From: Lacticaseibacillus suibinensis
GTDB lineage: Bacteria > Bacillota > Bacilli > Lactobacillales > Lactobacillaceae
Reading direction: 5' to 3'
DNA length: 64,000 nucleotides
NCBI RefSeq assembly: GCF_003946175.1
Contig: NZ_RHOK01000001.1
Span: 62,001-126,000, forward strand
Shown piece after piece: positions 8,262-15,715 of the stretch. The notes under the pieces were generated by a model. It was not told the origin of the DNA. It made no database searches and saw nothing but the letters and a program-made list of their open reading frames with translations. The number at the start of each line of letters is the position of its first letter. Position 1 is the stretch's first letter. A program made the translations under genes and the position numbers.

Positions 8262-8290
8262 TTGACAGACAGTTTTCACCAGACTAAACT
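8262..8290 (+). promoter_or_regulatory. Promoter of the Trp T-box / PTS-trpBA operon
   Basis: Consensus -35 TTGACA (8262-8267), 17-base spacer, -10 TAAACT (8285-8290). The transcript would begin near 8297, at the 5' end of the T-box leader. Confidence 0.8.
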
Positions 8291-8296
8291 CAGTGT

Positions 8297-8652
8297 CAAT
8301 CAAATCAATCTGTTTTCACAAACCGATGAGGTGGAGATCAAACCAGTTGTGCACGCACAGAGAGTCACGTTGCTGAGAAGTGGCCGAACGCAAGCTGGCA
8401 AATGGACCACCGAGGGCCTTGCCGAAAGATTTCAAGTACGCAAGGACGTCAGGCATACGTCAGTTGCCGGGAGAGTGTTGGCTCTTCGCTAAGCGTGATT
8501 CGAACGGAATCGCCCTGCGCAAAGAGCCCGTTGCATGAGTTGCAGCGGGCTTTGTGTTTGGGCCTACCGATTCGAGTCAAATCAAGGTGGCACCGCGGAA
8601 AATCCGTCCTTGATCGTCGTCATATTTGACGGCGATCGAGGGCGGATTTTTT
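8297..8652 (+). promoter_or_regulatory. T-box riboswitch leader, tryptophan (UGG) specifier
   Basis: tRNA-sensing leader that lets transcription continue when uncharged tRNA binds. The GATGAG K-turn is at 8325-8330, with the AGAGAG distal bulge at 8359-8364. The lower stem GGTGG (8330-8334) pairs with CCACC (8407-8411), and the upper stem CCAG(TTG) at 8343 pairs with CAAGCTGG (8391-8398). The specifier loop between them ends TGG-A (TGG 8403-8405), read as the Trp codon with the usual purine after it. The T-box core AAGGTGGCACCGCGG is at 8584-8598. The terminator has a 22-bp stem (8601-8622/8627-8648, three G-U pairs) and a T-run. It precedes the EIIA gene and, without another terminator, trpBA. 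The specifier call is from manual pairing. Confidence 0.92.
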
Positions 8653-8666
8653 GCTAGGAGGAAATT

Positions 8667-9125
8667 ATGCTGAGTCAATTCACGAATTTAAAGGCCATTA
8701 AGGTGCTGGCGCCGCTCACCACCCCTGAGCAAGCCATTAGGCAAGCGGGCGCGCTGCTGGTCAGCGGTGGTTTTGCCACCCCATTCTACACTCAGGCGAT
8801 GCTAACCAGCTTTAAAGCGAACGGCGCGTATTTTGTCATTGCGCCAGGCATCGCCATGCCGCATGCACGGCCAGAAAACGGGGTCTTGGTCGACGGTATC
8901 AGTCTTCTCACCCTCCAAACCCCGCTGGATTTCGGCAATGCCGCCAACGGTCCTGCCGATTTGATCATTGGCTTAGCGGCCACTGGCGCTGATCGCCATA
9001 TTCAGCTCATTCAAGCCATTGCCAAAGCCTTCAGTGCCCGATGGCGTTACCGCCAACTGATGTCATGCACCACCTCAAAGCAAGTCTTGTCGCTACTTGA
9101 AACGGATGCACCAAATGAAAGGTAG
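8667..9125 (+). CDS. PTS EIIA component, ascorbate/mannitol-type (SgaA/UlaC-like)
   Basis: Phosphocarrier (152 aa) of a sugar phosphotransferase system; it takes phosphate from HPr and passes it to EIIB. The PTS_EIIA_2 fold shows the active His in GIAMPHARPENG (His66), so it should be active. The start has SD AGGAGG and lies directly after the T-box terminator. It is the first gene of EIIA-EIIB-EIIC-trpB-trpA. By family the substrate would be ascorbate or a similar sugar acid. No ascorbate-catabolic gene (ulaD, E, F, G type) is nearby, and the control is by tRNA-Trp, so the true substrate is open. Confidence 0.92.
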   Translation: MLSQFTNLKAIKVLAPLTTPEQAIRQAGALLVSGGFATPFYTQAMLTSFKANGAYFVIAPGIAMPHARPENGVLVDGISLLTLQTPLDFGNAANGPADLIIGLAATGADRHIQLIQAIAKAFSARWRYRQLMSCTTSKQVLSLLETDAPNER

Positions 9126-9134
9126 GTTTTCTCA

Positions 9135-9410
9135 ATGCGCGTGTTAACTGTATGTGGGGCCGGGGTCGGCACCAGCCTGATGGAAAAAATGTTCGCCGAA
9201 GCGATTCTGAACGACGCCGGCGTCGACGCTCAAGTCGATAATGCCGACATCAGCAGCGCCACGCCGAATGATTACGACGTGGTTATTACCACCTCGATGT
9301 TTGCCGAGATGTTGCCAGCAACTAACGCCCAGGTCATTATTCATGACAACATCATGGATCAAACCGGCCTCAAGCAAAAGCTACTGGCGGCGCTGGCCCA
9401 GGAGGATTAA
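9135..9410 (+). CDS. PTS EIIB component, ascorbate-type (SgaB/UlaB-like)
   Basis: Small 91-aa EIIB that carries phosphate on a Cys. The P-loop-like VCGAGVGTSLM has the phospho-acceptor Cys7 intact, followed by the alternating alpha/beta fold of the lactose/ascorbate EIIB group. It starts nine bases after the EIIA stop, with AAAGGTAGG upstream, and is followed after three bases by the EIIC gene, so translation is tightly linked. It has no sign of decay. The substrate is not inferable from EIIB. Confidence 0.92.
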   Translation: MRVLTVCGAGVGTSLMEKMFAEAILNDAGVDAQVDNADISSATPNDYDVVITTSMFAEMLPATNAQVIIHDNIMDQTGLKQKLLAALAQED

Positions 9411-9413
9411 CCC

Positions 9414-10697
9414 ATGTCAATTCTCCTATACTTCATCAACAACGTCCTGAGTCAGCCAATTTTCATTCTGGGGCTGGTGGTGGTCATCGGCATGTTGGCT
9501 GAACATAAGCCTGGTAGCAAAATCCTGCCGAGTGCCCTGAAGGCCGTGATCGGCTTCACCATGATCAACGTGGGCGGCCAAACCTTAGGCACGGCACTTT
9601 TACCTTTGCAGCAGCTGATTGCGCATATTTTTGCCATGAAAGCCCCGGCCAGTGCTGATATCGGTGCCACCCAGGCCGCAAGCTTAACTGATGTCGGCTT
9701 TGACATGGCGATTATTTTCGCCTGCGGGTTCGTCATCAACTTGCTGCTGGCGCGTTTCACCCGGTTCAAGTTCGTGCATCTTTCGCCGCATGTGTCGTTT
9801 TTCTTTGCCGGCTTGATTGCCGCCCTTTTGAAATTCGGGACTGACCTGAATACACCGCTGCGGTTGGTGATTGGTTCCATTCTCTTAGGTGTCTACATGA
9901 CCTTCACCTGCGCCTATGTCAATGTGCTGATTAAGCCCGTGCGCGGCGCCGATGGCTTCACGCTGGCGCATTCCAGCTCGTCAGGACTCTTGGTCGCCTC
10001 CATCCTGGGGGAACTGTTCGGCGATAAAAAGCACGACCTGGAGGACACCAAGCTGCCAGTGAAGCTGAACTTCCTGCGGGATATGACGGTGGCGCTCACC
10101 CTGGTGATGATGCTGTTGTTCTTCGCCTTAGGACTGATTGCCGGCCCTCACTTCACCATGACGCAAGTGGCCGGTGGTAAGGACTTTGTGGTGTTCGCCA
10201 TTACCAAAGGGATTGAATTCGGGATGTGGATTACCGTCATCTTAGCTGGCGTGCGGATGATGCTAGCGGAAATCATTCCAGCTTTTCACGGCATCTCCCA
10301 CAAGCTAATCCCCAACGCCAAGCCAGGTTTGGATATTCCGCTGCTGTTTCCGCAGTATCCCACCAGTGTCATTGTGGGTTTTCTGTTGAGTTTAACCACT
10401 GGCATCATCGGGATGCTGATTTTAGCCGCCGCTCATTATCCCATCATCGTTTTTCCGGCCTTAATCCCAACCTTCTTTACTGGCGCGGCCACAGCGATTT
10501 TCGGTGATGCCCATGGCGGCCGCCGCGGCGCGCTACTGGGCGCCGGCGCCAACGGGTTTCTGCTGATTTTTGGCCAGGCTCTGTTGCTACCGATGGTGGG
10601 GACTTTCGCGCCAATCATGCGGATCTTAAGCGAAACCGATTATTGTGTCTACGGCCCGCTATTGGGCTTCGTGTTGAAATTAGTTCATCTTGGTTAA
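9414..10697 (+). CDS. PTS EIIC transporter, UlaA/SgaT family
   Basis: Membrane channel subunit (427 aa) that translocates the substrate for phosphorylation by EIIB. About ten or eleven hydrophobic segments are seen, starting [17 protein letters not shown]. The conserved family stretch [17 protein letters not shown] with [11 protein letters not shown], and the [18 protein letters not shown] segment, correspond to the same regions of E. coli UlaA. SD GGAGG precedes the ATG. Only 16 bases separate its stop from trpB and they hold no terminator, so trpBA are co-transcribed. Family knowledge points to a sugar-acid-like substrate. Context points to something that feeds tryptophan synthesis; that is inference. 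Confidence 0.9.
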
Positions 10698-10713
10698 TCA
10701 AAGGAGTTTTATC

Positions 10714-11931
10714 ATGACAAATAACTATGATCCTGAAACTGCAATGCAAGCTGGCCGTTACCTGGAATACGGTGGTCAATACCTTCCAGAAGTTTTGATG
10801 CCGGAAATTAACCGTGTCGCGGCGGCCTACGCCAAGTACAAGGACGACCCTGACTTCTTGAATGAGTTCCACACCTTGCTGCGGGAATACGCCGGCCGGC
10901 CTTCCCTGCTGTATTACGCCAAGAATATGACGGCAGATCTCGGCGGCGCCCAAATCTACCTCAAGCGGGAAGACCTCAACCATACCGGCGCGCATAAAAT
11001 CAATAATGTCATCGGCCAGGCCCTGCTCGCCAAGCGCATGGGCAAAACGCGCCTGATTGCTGAAACCGGTGCTGGTCAGCACGGCGTCGCCACCGCTACC
11101 ATCGCCGCCTTGTTCGGCATGGAATGTGAAATCTTCATGGGCAAAATGGATACCGACCGCCAGCGCCTGAATGTCTACCGCATGGAACTACTTGGCGCCA
11201 AAGTGAACGCAGTGACCAGCGGCTCGATGGTGCTGAAGGACGCCGTGAATGCGGCGCTGCAAAACTATGCGGCCCGCAGCGACGATACGTTTTATGTGAT
11301 GGGTTCTGCAGTCGGCCCGCATCCCTTCCCAGCGATGGTGCATGATTTTCAAAGTGTCATCAGTAAAGAATCCAAAGCCCAATTGCAGGACGCGATTGGC
11401 CAGTTGCCGGATTATGTGGTGGCCTGTGTCGGCGGCGGTAGCAATGCGATCGGCAGTTTTGCTGAATACATCAAAGACCCAAGCGTGCATCTGATCGGCT
11501 GTGAAGCCGCCGGTAAAGGCATCACCACTAAGCAAACAGCCGCCACCATGGCGCTTGGCTCCACCGGGATTTTCCATGGGATGAAGTCCCGCTTCTTGCA
11601 AAATCATGATGGGCAAATCGATTCTGTTTATTCGATTTCCGCCGGGCTCGACTACCCTGGCGTCGGTCCGGAACATGTGGCCTTGATGGATGAAGGCCGG
11701 GCCCAGTACGTGCCGATTACCGACGACGAGGCGGTTGATGCTTTCGAATACATCGCCAAGCAAGAAGGCATCATTGCCGCAATTGAAAGCTGCCACGCCG
11801 TTGCCGAAGTGCAAAAGCTCGCCCCAACCTTGAGTAAGGACCAGGTCATCATTTGCACCCTCTCTGGGCGCGGCGACAAGGACGTGGCCTCGATCGCCAA
11901 GTATCGCGGCATTGAACTGAATGAAGACTAG
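10714..11931 (+). CDS. trpB: Tryptophan synthase beta chain
   Basis: PLP enzyme (405 aa) that condenses indole with L-serine to give tryptophan, in an alpha2-beta2 complex with TrpA. The PLP Lys is in [10 protein letters not shown] (Lys95), the catalytic Glu in AETGAGQHG, and the PLP phosphate loop in [11 protein letters not shown]. The N-terminal [19 protein letters not shown] matches TrpB1. The ATG at 10714 has SD AAAGGAG; an in-frame start at 10690 overlaps EIIC and lacks an SD. trpE, G, D, C and F do not precede it as in a full trp operon. It follows a PTS gene set behind a Trp T-box, so it should be induced when tRNA-Trp is uncharged. Confidence 0.97.
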
Positions 11932-11950
11932 TTGAGGAAGGAAAATCATC

Positions 11951-12721
11951 ATGAGTAAATTAACAGACGCATTCAATAACGGTAAAGCGTTCATTCCCTT
12001 CATCGTTGCCGGCGATCCTGATGAAGCCAGCACCTTGAACAACATCCTTGCTATGGCCAAAGCCGGCGCGGATATCATCGAGCTAGGCATTCCCTTTTCC
12101 GATCCGGTTGCCGATGGCCCAGTGATCCAAGCCGGTGATTTGCGCGCCTTCAAAGGCGGCATTACTGTCGACAAAATCTTTAACATTGTCAAAGCCGCCC
12201 GGCAGCAAATTCAAACCCCCATCGTCTTTTTGACCTACGCCAACGTGCCGTTCAAGTATGGTTATGACCGCTTTTGCGCCCAGTGTCAGGCCTTGGGCGT
12301 GAACGGGTTGGTGATACCGGATTTGCCTTTTGAAGAGCAAGCCGAAATTCGGCCCTTCACGCAAAAATACGGGCTTGACTTGATTATGTTGATTACGCTG
12401 AATTCTGGTGATCGCGTGCCAGCTCTGGCTAAAGCCGCGGAAGGATTCATCTATGTCGTCAGCACCCAAGGCATCACAGGGGAGCGTGATGAATTCGATC
12501 ACCGCCTCGCCGCCCTCTTCGCCGAGATCAAGCAGTATACAGAGGTGCCGGCGGCGCTGGGTTTTGGCATTCACACGCCCGCGCAGGCCAAGGCGCTGTC
12601 GCAGTTCGCCGATGGCATTATCGTTGGCTCAGCGATTGTGGAGCTGGCGGCGCAGCACGGCACCGAGGCGGCCGCCGCAATTGGGCAGTATACCGCAGAG
12701 ATGAAAGCGGCGCTGGCCTAA
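11951..12721 (+). CDS. trpA: Tryptophan synthase alpha chain
   Basis: Cleaves indole-3-glycerol phosphate into indole and glyceraldehyde 3-phosphate; the indole is channelled to TrpB. It has 256 aa in a TIM barrel. Both catalytic acids are present in ELGIPFSDPVADGP (Glu44 and Asp55, equivalent to E. coli Glu49 and Asp60), and the loop-6 region reads VSTQGITGERDEF. The intact acids imply selection for real IGP cleavage, not just TrpB activation. SD AGGAAGG lies upstream. It is the last gene of the T-box operon and is followed by a hairpin terminator. Confidence 0.97.
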   Translation: MSKLTDAFNNGKAFIPFIVAGDPDEASTLNNILAMAKAGADIIELGIPFSDPVADGPVIQAGDLRAFKGGITVDKIFNIVKAARQQIQTPIVFLTYANVPFKYGYDRFCAQCQALGVNGLVIPDLPFEEQAEIRPFTQKYGLDLIMLITLNSGDRVPALAKAAEGFIYVVSTQGITGERDEFDHRLAALFAEIKQYTEVPAALGFGIHTPAQAKALSQFADGIIVGSAIVELAAQHGTEAAAAIGQYTAEMKAALA

Positions 12722-12745
12722 TCAGTCAATTCAACCCACCAAGCG

Positions 12746-12785
12746 CACTAAAATAACCACGCCATGTGACGTGGTTGTTTTAGTG
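12746..12785 (+). terminator. Terminator of the PTS-trpBA operon
   Basis: CACTAAAATAACCACG / CGTGGTTGTTTTAGTG, a 16-bp stem with an 8-nt loop; the T-rich part is inside the stem. Confidence 0.8.
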
Positions 12786-15342: not shown

Positions 15343-15715
15343 TTTGCAGCCCTCTATAAGCCATGTTTTGTTCCAGCTGGATGTCAGGCCATCCAGCCTT
15401 CAGTAATCATCTATCTCAGCTTACGCTGTTAGGGCCATCGGTTCAGTTCCCTAGGCCTTGCGCCCCTACCAAAGTTTGGGTTACTCGCTCGCGGGGTTTA
15501 CCCGTTCCAATCCCTTGATTTCTCAAGGGCCTCGTCTCTGTGGCACTTTCAGACTGACTCACGCGTGACCGAAGTTTTAGCGCTTTTAGTCGCCGTTACC
15601 CGAAGGTACTCAGGCTTATTGGGCCTGACACGAACACTACAAGCATCACAGCTTGTGCGGGCATGGACTTTCCTCACCTGACAATCGCCAGGCGCGATTA
15701 CTCAAGGACTGCAAA
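15343..15715 (-). ncRNA. rnpB: RNase P RNA, type B
   Basis: Catalytic RNA that matures the 5' ends of tRNAs. On the minus strand the 5' P1 arm TTTGCAGTCCTT pairs with AGGGCTGCAAA at the 3' end, which sets the limits. The universal GAGGAAAGTCCATGC is near the 5' end, and the 3' conserved ACAAAACATGGCTTATAGAG and the central GGTAACGGC...GTGCCACAGAGACGA parts are also seen. The overall order matches the Bacillus (B) type. It is about 373 nt and is followed by a terminator. Ends may be off by a few bases. Confidence 0.95.

Follow-up and report, generated by a model that had tools for sequence, protein, structure and literature searches.

In the window analysed here, a stretch of 64,000 nucleotides from Lacticaseibacillus suibinensis (contig NZ_RHOK01000001.1, positions 62,001 to 126,000), a single operon at positions 8262-12785 joins a promoter and a T-box leader with the tryptophan specifier UGG to the EIIA, EIIB and UlaA-type EIIC components of a phosphotransferase system (PTS), the tryptophan synthase genes trpB and trpA, and a terminator. 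The operon probably encodes a salvage system induced by tryptophan (Trp) starvation, in which the PTS would import indole-3-glycerol as indole-3-glycerol phosphate (IGP) for trpBA. PTS permeases are known chiefly as carriers of sugars, sugar alcohols and ascorbate, taken up for catabolism. The EIIC described here belongs to a clade found in other genera beside TrpA-family genes, and a dedicated indole-3-glycerol PTS appears fairly likely, with one form induced by Trp starvation and another induced by its substrate and paired with a TrpA-like IGP lyase, which would imply trade of the metabolite. The substrate of the PTS must be a compound which, once phosphorylated, is cleaved by TrpA to indole.

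The operon and its missing trp genes

The genome carrying the window is a 2.56 Mb draft in 55 contigs, 99.97% complete, and its closest named relative is L. suilingensis (genome G325), with an EIIC identity of 99%. All features of the operon lie on the forward strand. The sigma-70 type promoter (TTGACA-17-TAAACT, positions 8262-8290) is a consensus match only and a weak call by itself, five promoter-like sites being found in the scanned stretch where 3.2 were expected. The T-box leader follows at positions 8317-8614, with the UGG specifier at 8403-8405 and the antiterminator bulge UGGC near 8588-8591. In an Infernal search of the whole genome it matched RF00230 over the full length of the model (1-219) with 81.2 bits and an E value of 4.9e-18; this is below the Rfam gathering score of 93, as are the scores of 19 of the 20 T-boxes reported in the genome, the trp leader among them. 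The specifier is embedded in the context AAA-UGG-ACC at 8400-8408, and the motif AAATGGACC occurs in the trp leader alone among the 20 T-boxes; this was the only motif scanned for, and other Trp T-boxes are possible. An intrinsic terminator, a rival fold to the antiterminator, was located at positions 8602-8652 by terminator scan and folding (-50 kcal/mol, z -9.25). The leader has the features of a Trp-class T-box and would respond to uncharged tRNA-Trp.

The three PTS genes encode an EIIA of the fructose/ascorbate type with His66 (PTS_EIIA_2, PF00359; positions 8667-9125), an EIIB with Cys7 (PTS_IIB, PF02302; 9135-9410) and an EIIC of 427 residues (PF03611; 9414-10697), each a profile match above the curated cut-off. 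The combination of a PF03611 EIIC with a separate fructose-type EIIA and a PTS_IIB places the transporter in the UlaA (AG) superfamily; EIIA and EIIB both retain their phosphoryl residues. They are followed by trpB (10714-11931; TIGR00263, 632 bits, above cut-off) and trpA (11951-12721; TIGR00262, above cut-off), the latter with an intact IGP site. EIIC and trpB are 16 bases apart, and a terminator-like site sought in this gap was not found; the operon terminator, a hairpin followed by a T-rich tail, lies at 12755-12776 and was also scored on the other strand. The original prediction, made without database searches, had described the same gene order, the His66 and Cys7 residues, the 16-base junction and catalytic residues that were all in place, and the coordinates, profile matches and terminator scan confirm it. 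The ratios of non-synonymous to synonymous substitution rates (dN/dS) between the window and L. suilingensis were 0.011 for EIIC, 0.009 for TrpB, 0.056 for TrpA, 0.041 for EIIB and 0.188 for EIIA, and the operon genes are under purifying selection in this comparison.

No match to IGP synthase (trpC; PF00218) or to the chorismate-binding family of TrpE (PF00425) was obtained in the genome of L. suibinensis, in which trpD, trpF and trpG were not searched for, and the two profiles found a match in all 14 control genomes. An assembly gap is an unlikely cause, because neither trpC nor trpE was found in the sister genome of L. suilingensis. Among the 26 Lacticaseibacillus genomes examined, TrpA was present in 22 and trpC in 17, and five contained TrpA without TrpC. 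The absence of trpE was dropped as a test, since 21 of these 26 genomes were also without a trpE match; loss of trpE is the genus norm and says little, and it is the loss of trpC that is informative. From these searches the bacterium appears to be unable to make IGP itself. The earlier proposal that trpBA could work here without trpEGDCF has thus held for trpC and trpE, neither of which matched elsewhere in the genome, and its trpE part has lost its weight.

The EIIC clade, its TrpA-family partners and its leaders

Searches of 397 genomes of the family identified 7 EIICs with at least 72% identity to that of the window and 20 further EIICs at 34-36%. Another 9 clade members at 52-68% identity and 7 non-clade EIICs at about 37-38% came from sampled genomes of the order (395), the phylum (398) and one additional family (29). 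With two extra named Lacticaseibacillus species the clade amounts to 18 loci, from Lactobacillales and one more distant Bacillota genome. The searches were thresholded at E values of 1e-80, 1e-90 or 1e-95, and weaker EIICs are not among the 27 non-clade ones. Identity is at least 50% within the clade (16 rows compared) and at most 41% to any other EIIC compared. The clade received full support in an EIIC tree that was rooted at its midpoint and has long branches and unresolved forks. It was built from 30 of the 45 rows; 13 of the 20 distant EIICs of the same family were left out, as were the loci L115 and L058, where the EIIC open reading frame is cut short.

A TrpA-family gene is located in the same cluster in 15 of the 18 clade loci and in none of the 27 more distant ones (Fisher 2e-9; the loci are not phylogenetically independent, and 23 of the 27 distant loci were viewed with 1.5 kb per side only). 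Eight clade loci from six families consist of a PRD-type regulator-EIIA (the PRD label being assigned by eye from the sequence), EIIB, EIIC and a lone TrpA-like gene. These lone-TrpA systems are probably catabolic, because no trpB over the cut-off was found in seven of their eight genomes. At an E value of 0.01 no T-box was detected in the lone-TrpA loci, among which the contig of G467 begins inside the regulator gene, leaving its leader out of reach. The lone TrpA-like proteins form a separate clade in the TrpA tree (L057, with several genes in two frames in its record, was omitted both here and from the EIIC residue table below), and the best solved-structure relative of the only one tested, that of G106, was BX1 (1tjr; E 3.2e-22). 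All eight keep the IGP residues E49, D60, T183, G184, G213, G234 and S/T235 (E. coli numbering), and their indole pocket is hydrophobic, with Phe/Tyr at 22, Met at 100, Tyr102 and Tyr175. They are candidate stand-alone IGP lyases. The maize enzymes BX1 and IGL, according to passages of PMC2395261, cleave IGP without a beta subunit and yield indole for plant defence and signalling; the bacterial proteins resemble them as lone TrpA homologues and differ in sitting with a PTS.

Two neighbouring observations concern these loci. Plasmid pMA1X17-3 of Jeotgalibaca sp. MA1X17-3 (L138/L113) carries the PTS with a lone TrpA, the regulator and EIIC each being split in two frames, and its PLSDB gene table does not list the EIIC. 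Beside the G106 cluster, at L052:3100-8632, is a second regulator-EIIA/EIIB/EIIC set with an EIIC of 30% identity; the gene after it resembles a transketolase by eye.

The lone-TrpA loci also bear on another reading, in which the PTS imports a related compound, such as another aryl-glycerol, an indole conjugate or a 3-substituted glycerol, that is phosphorylated and then cleaved by TrpA or a TrpA-like lyase, giving indole in the trp operons and mainly glyceraldehyde 3-phosphate as a carbon source in the PRD-regulated loci. A role in Trp synthesis is unlikely in the seven genomes without trpB, and the regulator-EIIA preceding EIIB suggests substrate induction and catabolism. We nevertheless consider this reading rather unlikely, given that the IGP residues and the hydrophobic indole pocket are retained in the lone proteins, that the EIIC pocket is identical in both kinds of locus, and that the Trp-linked loci need a substrate yielding indole.

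Tryptophan control was found in several parts of the clade. All eight Lacticaseibacillus PTS species compared carry UGG T-boxes with the same specifier motif in their leaders, and in G439 a UGG T-box precedes trpDCFBA-EIIABC. In G476, EIIABC is preceded by a Trp-codon leader peptide, MTLVFISWQGWHRIK, of 15 codons, two of them for Trp; the leader has a ribosome site and folds in a terminator-like manner. A homologous leader, MNNAFQSWQKWHRK, precedes a second, stand-alone trpB in the same genome, and the attenuator pairing segments are common to both leaders (L114:11005-11260 and L140 near 10354, minus strand; attenuator-like folds). The trpDCFBA genes of G476 are found elsewhere in the genome than EIIABC, behind two tandem T-box-like sequences (by eye). 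Judged by these leaders, three lineages of the PTS clade are controlled by Trp, through two leader kinds, the T-box and the leader peptide. In the EIIC tree G439 groups with G467 and Jeotgalibaca, and Lacticaseibacillus adjoins G106; the loci of G467, Jeotgalibaca and G106 are all of the lone-TrpA kind. Because G439 and Lacticaseibacillus fall into different EIIC groups, both of which adjoin lone-TrpA loci, acquisition of Trp control probably happened more than once. The original prediction had asked whether this EIIC clade always sits with trpBA or Trp T-boxes; its loci have TrpA-family genes or Trp leaders.

Trp T-boxes of Firmicutes likewise stand before trp genes or uptake genes (ABC, NSS) in passages of PMC2494555, where amino-acid transporters are often T-box controlled. 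This would suit an EIIC clade that transports or only senses tryptophan, indole or anthranilate. Such a role is most improbable, since these three compounds offer no hydroxyl to a PTS whose EIIA and EIIB phosphoryl residues are intact, and it would leave the lone TrpA-like partner unexplained. The words 'PTS' and 'phosphotransferase' are absent from the main text of PMC2494555, and 'PTS' from the main texts of the T-box papers PMC7778990 and PMC3766115. In titles and abstract starts of the open-access literature no paper on an indole-3-glycerol PTS or on an EIIC-TrpA link was found, and an earlier notice is possible.

The gene orders in Lacticaseibacillus may be arranged as follows. In G345 and G371 a UGG T-box stands directly before trpBDCFA, adjoining a relative of the upstream neighbour of the operon in the window (a phosphatase by eye). 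L. hulanensis and L. pantheris have T-box-EIIABC-trpBDCFA, L. sharpeae and L. daqingensis have T-box-EIIABC-trpB followed by an equally long gap that contains trpC, and then by trpA (trpD and trpF not listed singly), and the window and L. suilingensis have T-box-EIIABC-trpBA. In the simplest series the PTS would have been inserted between the leader and trpB, and the middle trp genes lost thereafter. In L. jixianensis and L. camelliae a UGG T-box precedes EIIABC, and no trpB was found in the approximately 150 bases to the contig end, which contain a terminator-like sequence by eye; L. jixianensis has an additional, separate T-box-trpDCFBA operon. To judge by the EIIC tree and gene order, the clade probably originated as a PTS that was induced by its substrate and accompanied by a stand-alone TrpA-like IGP lyase, with Trp control acquired later in three lineages.

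The occurrence of trpC before trpA together with EIIABC-trpB in L. hulanensis, L. pantheris, L. sharpeae and L. daqingensis, and of trpDCFBA-EIIABC in G439, would also agree with a PTS that in the trpDCF species supplies an earlier intermediate in dephosphorylated form, for instance 1-(o-carboxyphenylamino)-1-deoxyribulose, with indole-3-glycerol as a secondary substrate. We hold this to be highly improbable, as the window and L. suilingensis are without a trpC match and the lone loci have the TrpA-like enzyme only.

TrpA active sites and the EIIC pocket

Residues Gly184, Gly213, Gly234 and Ser235 of TrpA have phosphate-binding roles. According to passages of PMC6236060, the catalytic residues of E. 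coli TrpA are Glu49 and Asp60, and in the IGP-bound enzyme a bond joins Thr183 of loop 6 to the Asp60 loop. The TrpA of the window and that of locus L048 retain E49, D60, T183, G184, G213, G234 and S235, and the last five of these were kept in all 13 TrpA of the comparison whose locus or genome has trpC or the PTS. In contrast, T183, G184 and G234 were lost in all three Lacticaseibacillus TrpA without trpC or PTS (G107, G303 and G379), two of which also lost G213; these decayed TrpA, at L085:4287-5036, L086:9052-9804 and L087:9536-10690, belong to loci with a Trp T-box and trpBA. The five genomes with TrpA and no TrpC are accordingly divided into two with the PTS, in which the residues are kept, and three without it, in which they are lost. 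The comparison took 5 of the 13 same-genus genomes with trpC and without the PTS; TrpA of the remaining eight scored 283-293 bits against PF00290, compared to 149-170 bits for the three decayed TrpA.

Passages of PMC4042155 describe TrpA of Chlamydia trachomatis, which has trpBA only, as purely structural and changed in loop 6. Its trpRBA operon, like that of the window, is Trp-controlled and has trpBA without trpC; the two differ in that the TrpA of the window keeps its IGP site, with neither loop 6 nor the phosphate site lost, and has a PTS in the operon. Because the TrpA without trpC or PTS have lost loop-6 residues and G234, the alpha site would seem to decay where nothing supplies IGP and to stay intact in the window. 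The three PTS-less Lacticaseibacillus apparently perform indole salvage with a structural alpha subunit, as in Chlamydia. In G379 an OppA-like lipoprotein (554 aa, by eye) is encoded between the Trp T-box and trpBA (L086:11081-12745).

Residues 3-399 of the window EIIC align with UlaA (E 1.9e-41), and UlaABC/SgaTBA (4RP8, 4RP9, 5ZOV) is made up of the same EIIA, EIIB and EIIC families. The clade EIICs are 25-29% identical to E. coli UlaA (16 rows) and differ from it in having Trp control or a TrpA partner, with no ula neighbours recognised by eye. Of the 11 residues named as ascorbate contacts of UlaA in passages of PMC6048161, five are identical in the window EIIC (His135, His194, Asp314, Ile358 and Phe362, corresponding to H126, H186, D307, I351 and F355) and six are replaced (Thr86, Tyr87, Ile136, Gln139, Gln195 and Met410), so that the set of ascorbate contacts typical of UlaABC is incomplete. 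Three of the replacements are Q139 to F130, Q195 to S187 and M410 to E407. Phe139, Ser195 and Glu410 (UlaA positions) were found in all 17 readable clade rows, T-box and lone-TrpA loci alike, and neither Ser195 nor Glu410 occurs in any of the 27 other EIICs; the alignment is less certain around position 410. The simplest reading of this pattern is a single specificity across the clade, other than ascorbate. By eye no ascorbate catabolic genes (ulaD, E, F, G) were recognised around the operons of the window, L. hulanensis, G106, G439, G476 and seven other loci, no search by protein family having been made for them. The original prediction would have been undone by a complete trpEGDCF set elsewhere together with a clade found mainly with ascorbate genes; the clade is instead found with TrpA or Trp leaders, the ascorbate side of this comparison being judged by eye.

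As a less exciting possibility, the original prediction had offered the capture of an unrelated sugar PTS by the leader. Combined with salvage of diffusing indole only, as in Chlamydia, a captured sugar or ascorbate PTS would find some agreement in passages of PMC4042155, where trpBA lacking trpC is described as a route of indole salvage, and in the NCBIfam 'ascorbate' equivalog NF006919, which the window EIIC matches just above the cut-off (393 against 380 bits) and by which automatic annotation will probably misname it. This combination is very unlikely in view of the clade's recurrent association with TrpA-family genes and, in three lineages, with Trp control, the low EIIC dN/dS, the six changed ascorbate contacts, and loop 6, which among the 16 TrpA compared (the lone ones excluded) is retained in all 13 with trpC or PTS and lost in all 3 that have neither. 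The capture itself is hard to keep with TrpA at 15 of 18 loci and three lineages, and we rejected it, the EIIC clade adjoining TrpA-family genes in other genera and having a second kind of Trp leader.

Elsewhere in the window, an ordinary RNase P RNA of class B was found at positions 15352-15709 on the minus strand (301 bits).

Proposed function and its meaning

The indole-3-glycerol salvage system proposed for the window would operate as follows. By homology of the T-box and its UGG specifier, uncharged tRNA-Trp would bind the leader upon Trp starvation and the operon would be transcribed. EIIA, EIIB and EIIC would receive phosphate from phosphoenolpyruvate via EI and HPr and import indole-3-glycerol, whose terminal hydroxyl would be phosphorylated on entry, giving cytoplasmic IGP. 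TrpA and TrpB, the two remaining enzymes, could then carry the flux from IGP to Trp without trpC. Ascorbate and indole-3-glycerol are both flat heterocycles bearing a polyol side chain. Indole-3-glycerol would fit the system because it has a terminal hydroxyl, because its polyol side chain is attached to a flat ring as in ascorbate, and because its phosphate is IGP. The import of a Trp precursor, as originally predicted, thus gains from the TrpA link and from Trp control, and indole-3-glycerol remains the candidate put forward for it.

Several observations weigh against this interpretation. Indole-3-glycerol is released by trp mutants; a source of the free compound in these habitats was sought in the open-access literature, and none was found. 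Three clade loci, in L. jixianensis, L. camelliae and G476, are without TrpA beside EIIC, and the EIIC of G497 and that of the Jeotgalibaca plasmid are each split between two reading frames, so that these copies may be decaying or misread. The lone TrpA-like proteins share only about 25% identity with TrpA, and another aryl-glycerol phosphate is possible as their substrate. The TrpA of G439 (L112:7562-8344) has Glu for Asp60, which may weaken its alpha activity. The decayed TrpA retain E49 and D60, with G213 and Thr235 in L086 and Ser235 in L087, and the decay pattern covers five genomes with about two independent losses by the tree (Fisher 0.1, PTS versus none). Finally, Phe139 also occurs in 4 of the 27 other EIICs and is not confined to the clade.

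If the interpretation is true, the PTS feeds amino-acid biosynthesis and has a specificity new to its otherwise known transporter superfamily, and a substrate is defined for an EIIC clade whose window member NCBIfam scores as 'ascorbate'. The interpretation would also explain an active TrpA in cells with trpBA only, give the lone bacterial TrpA genes a partner and correct genome-based calls of tryptophan auxotrophy. A dephosphorylated intermediate, once excreted, would return directly to IGP by group translocation, and indole-3-glycerol would be a compound traded between microbes or obtained from plants.

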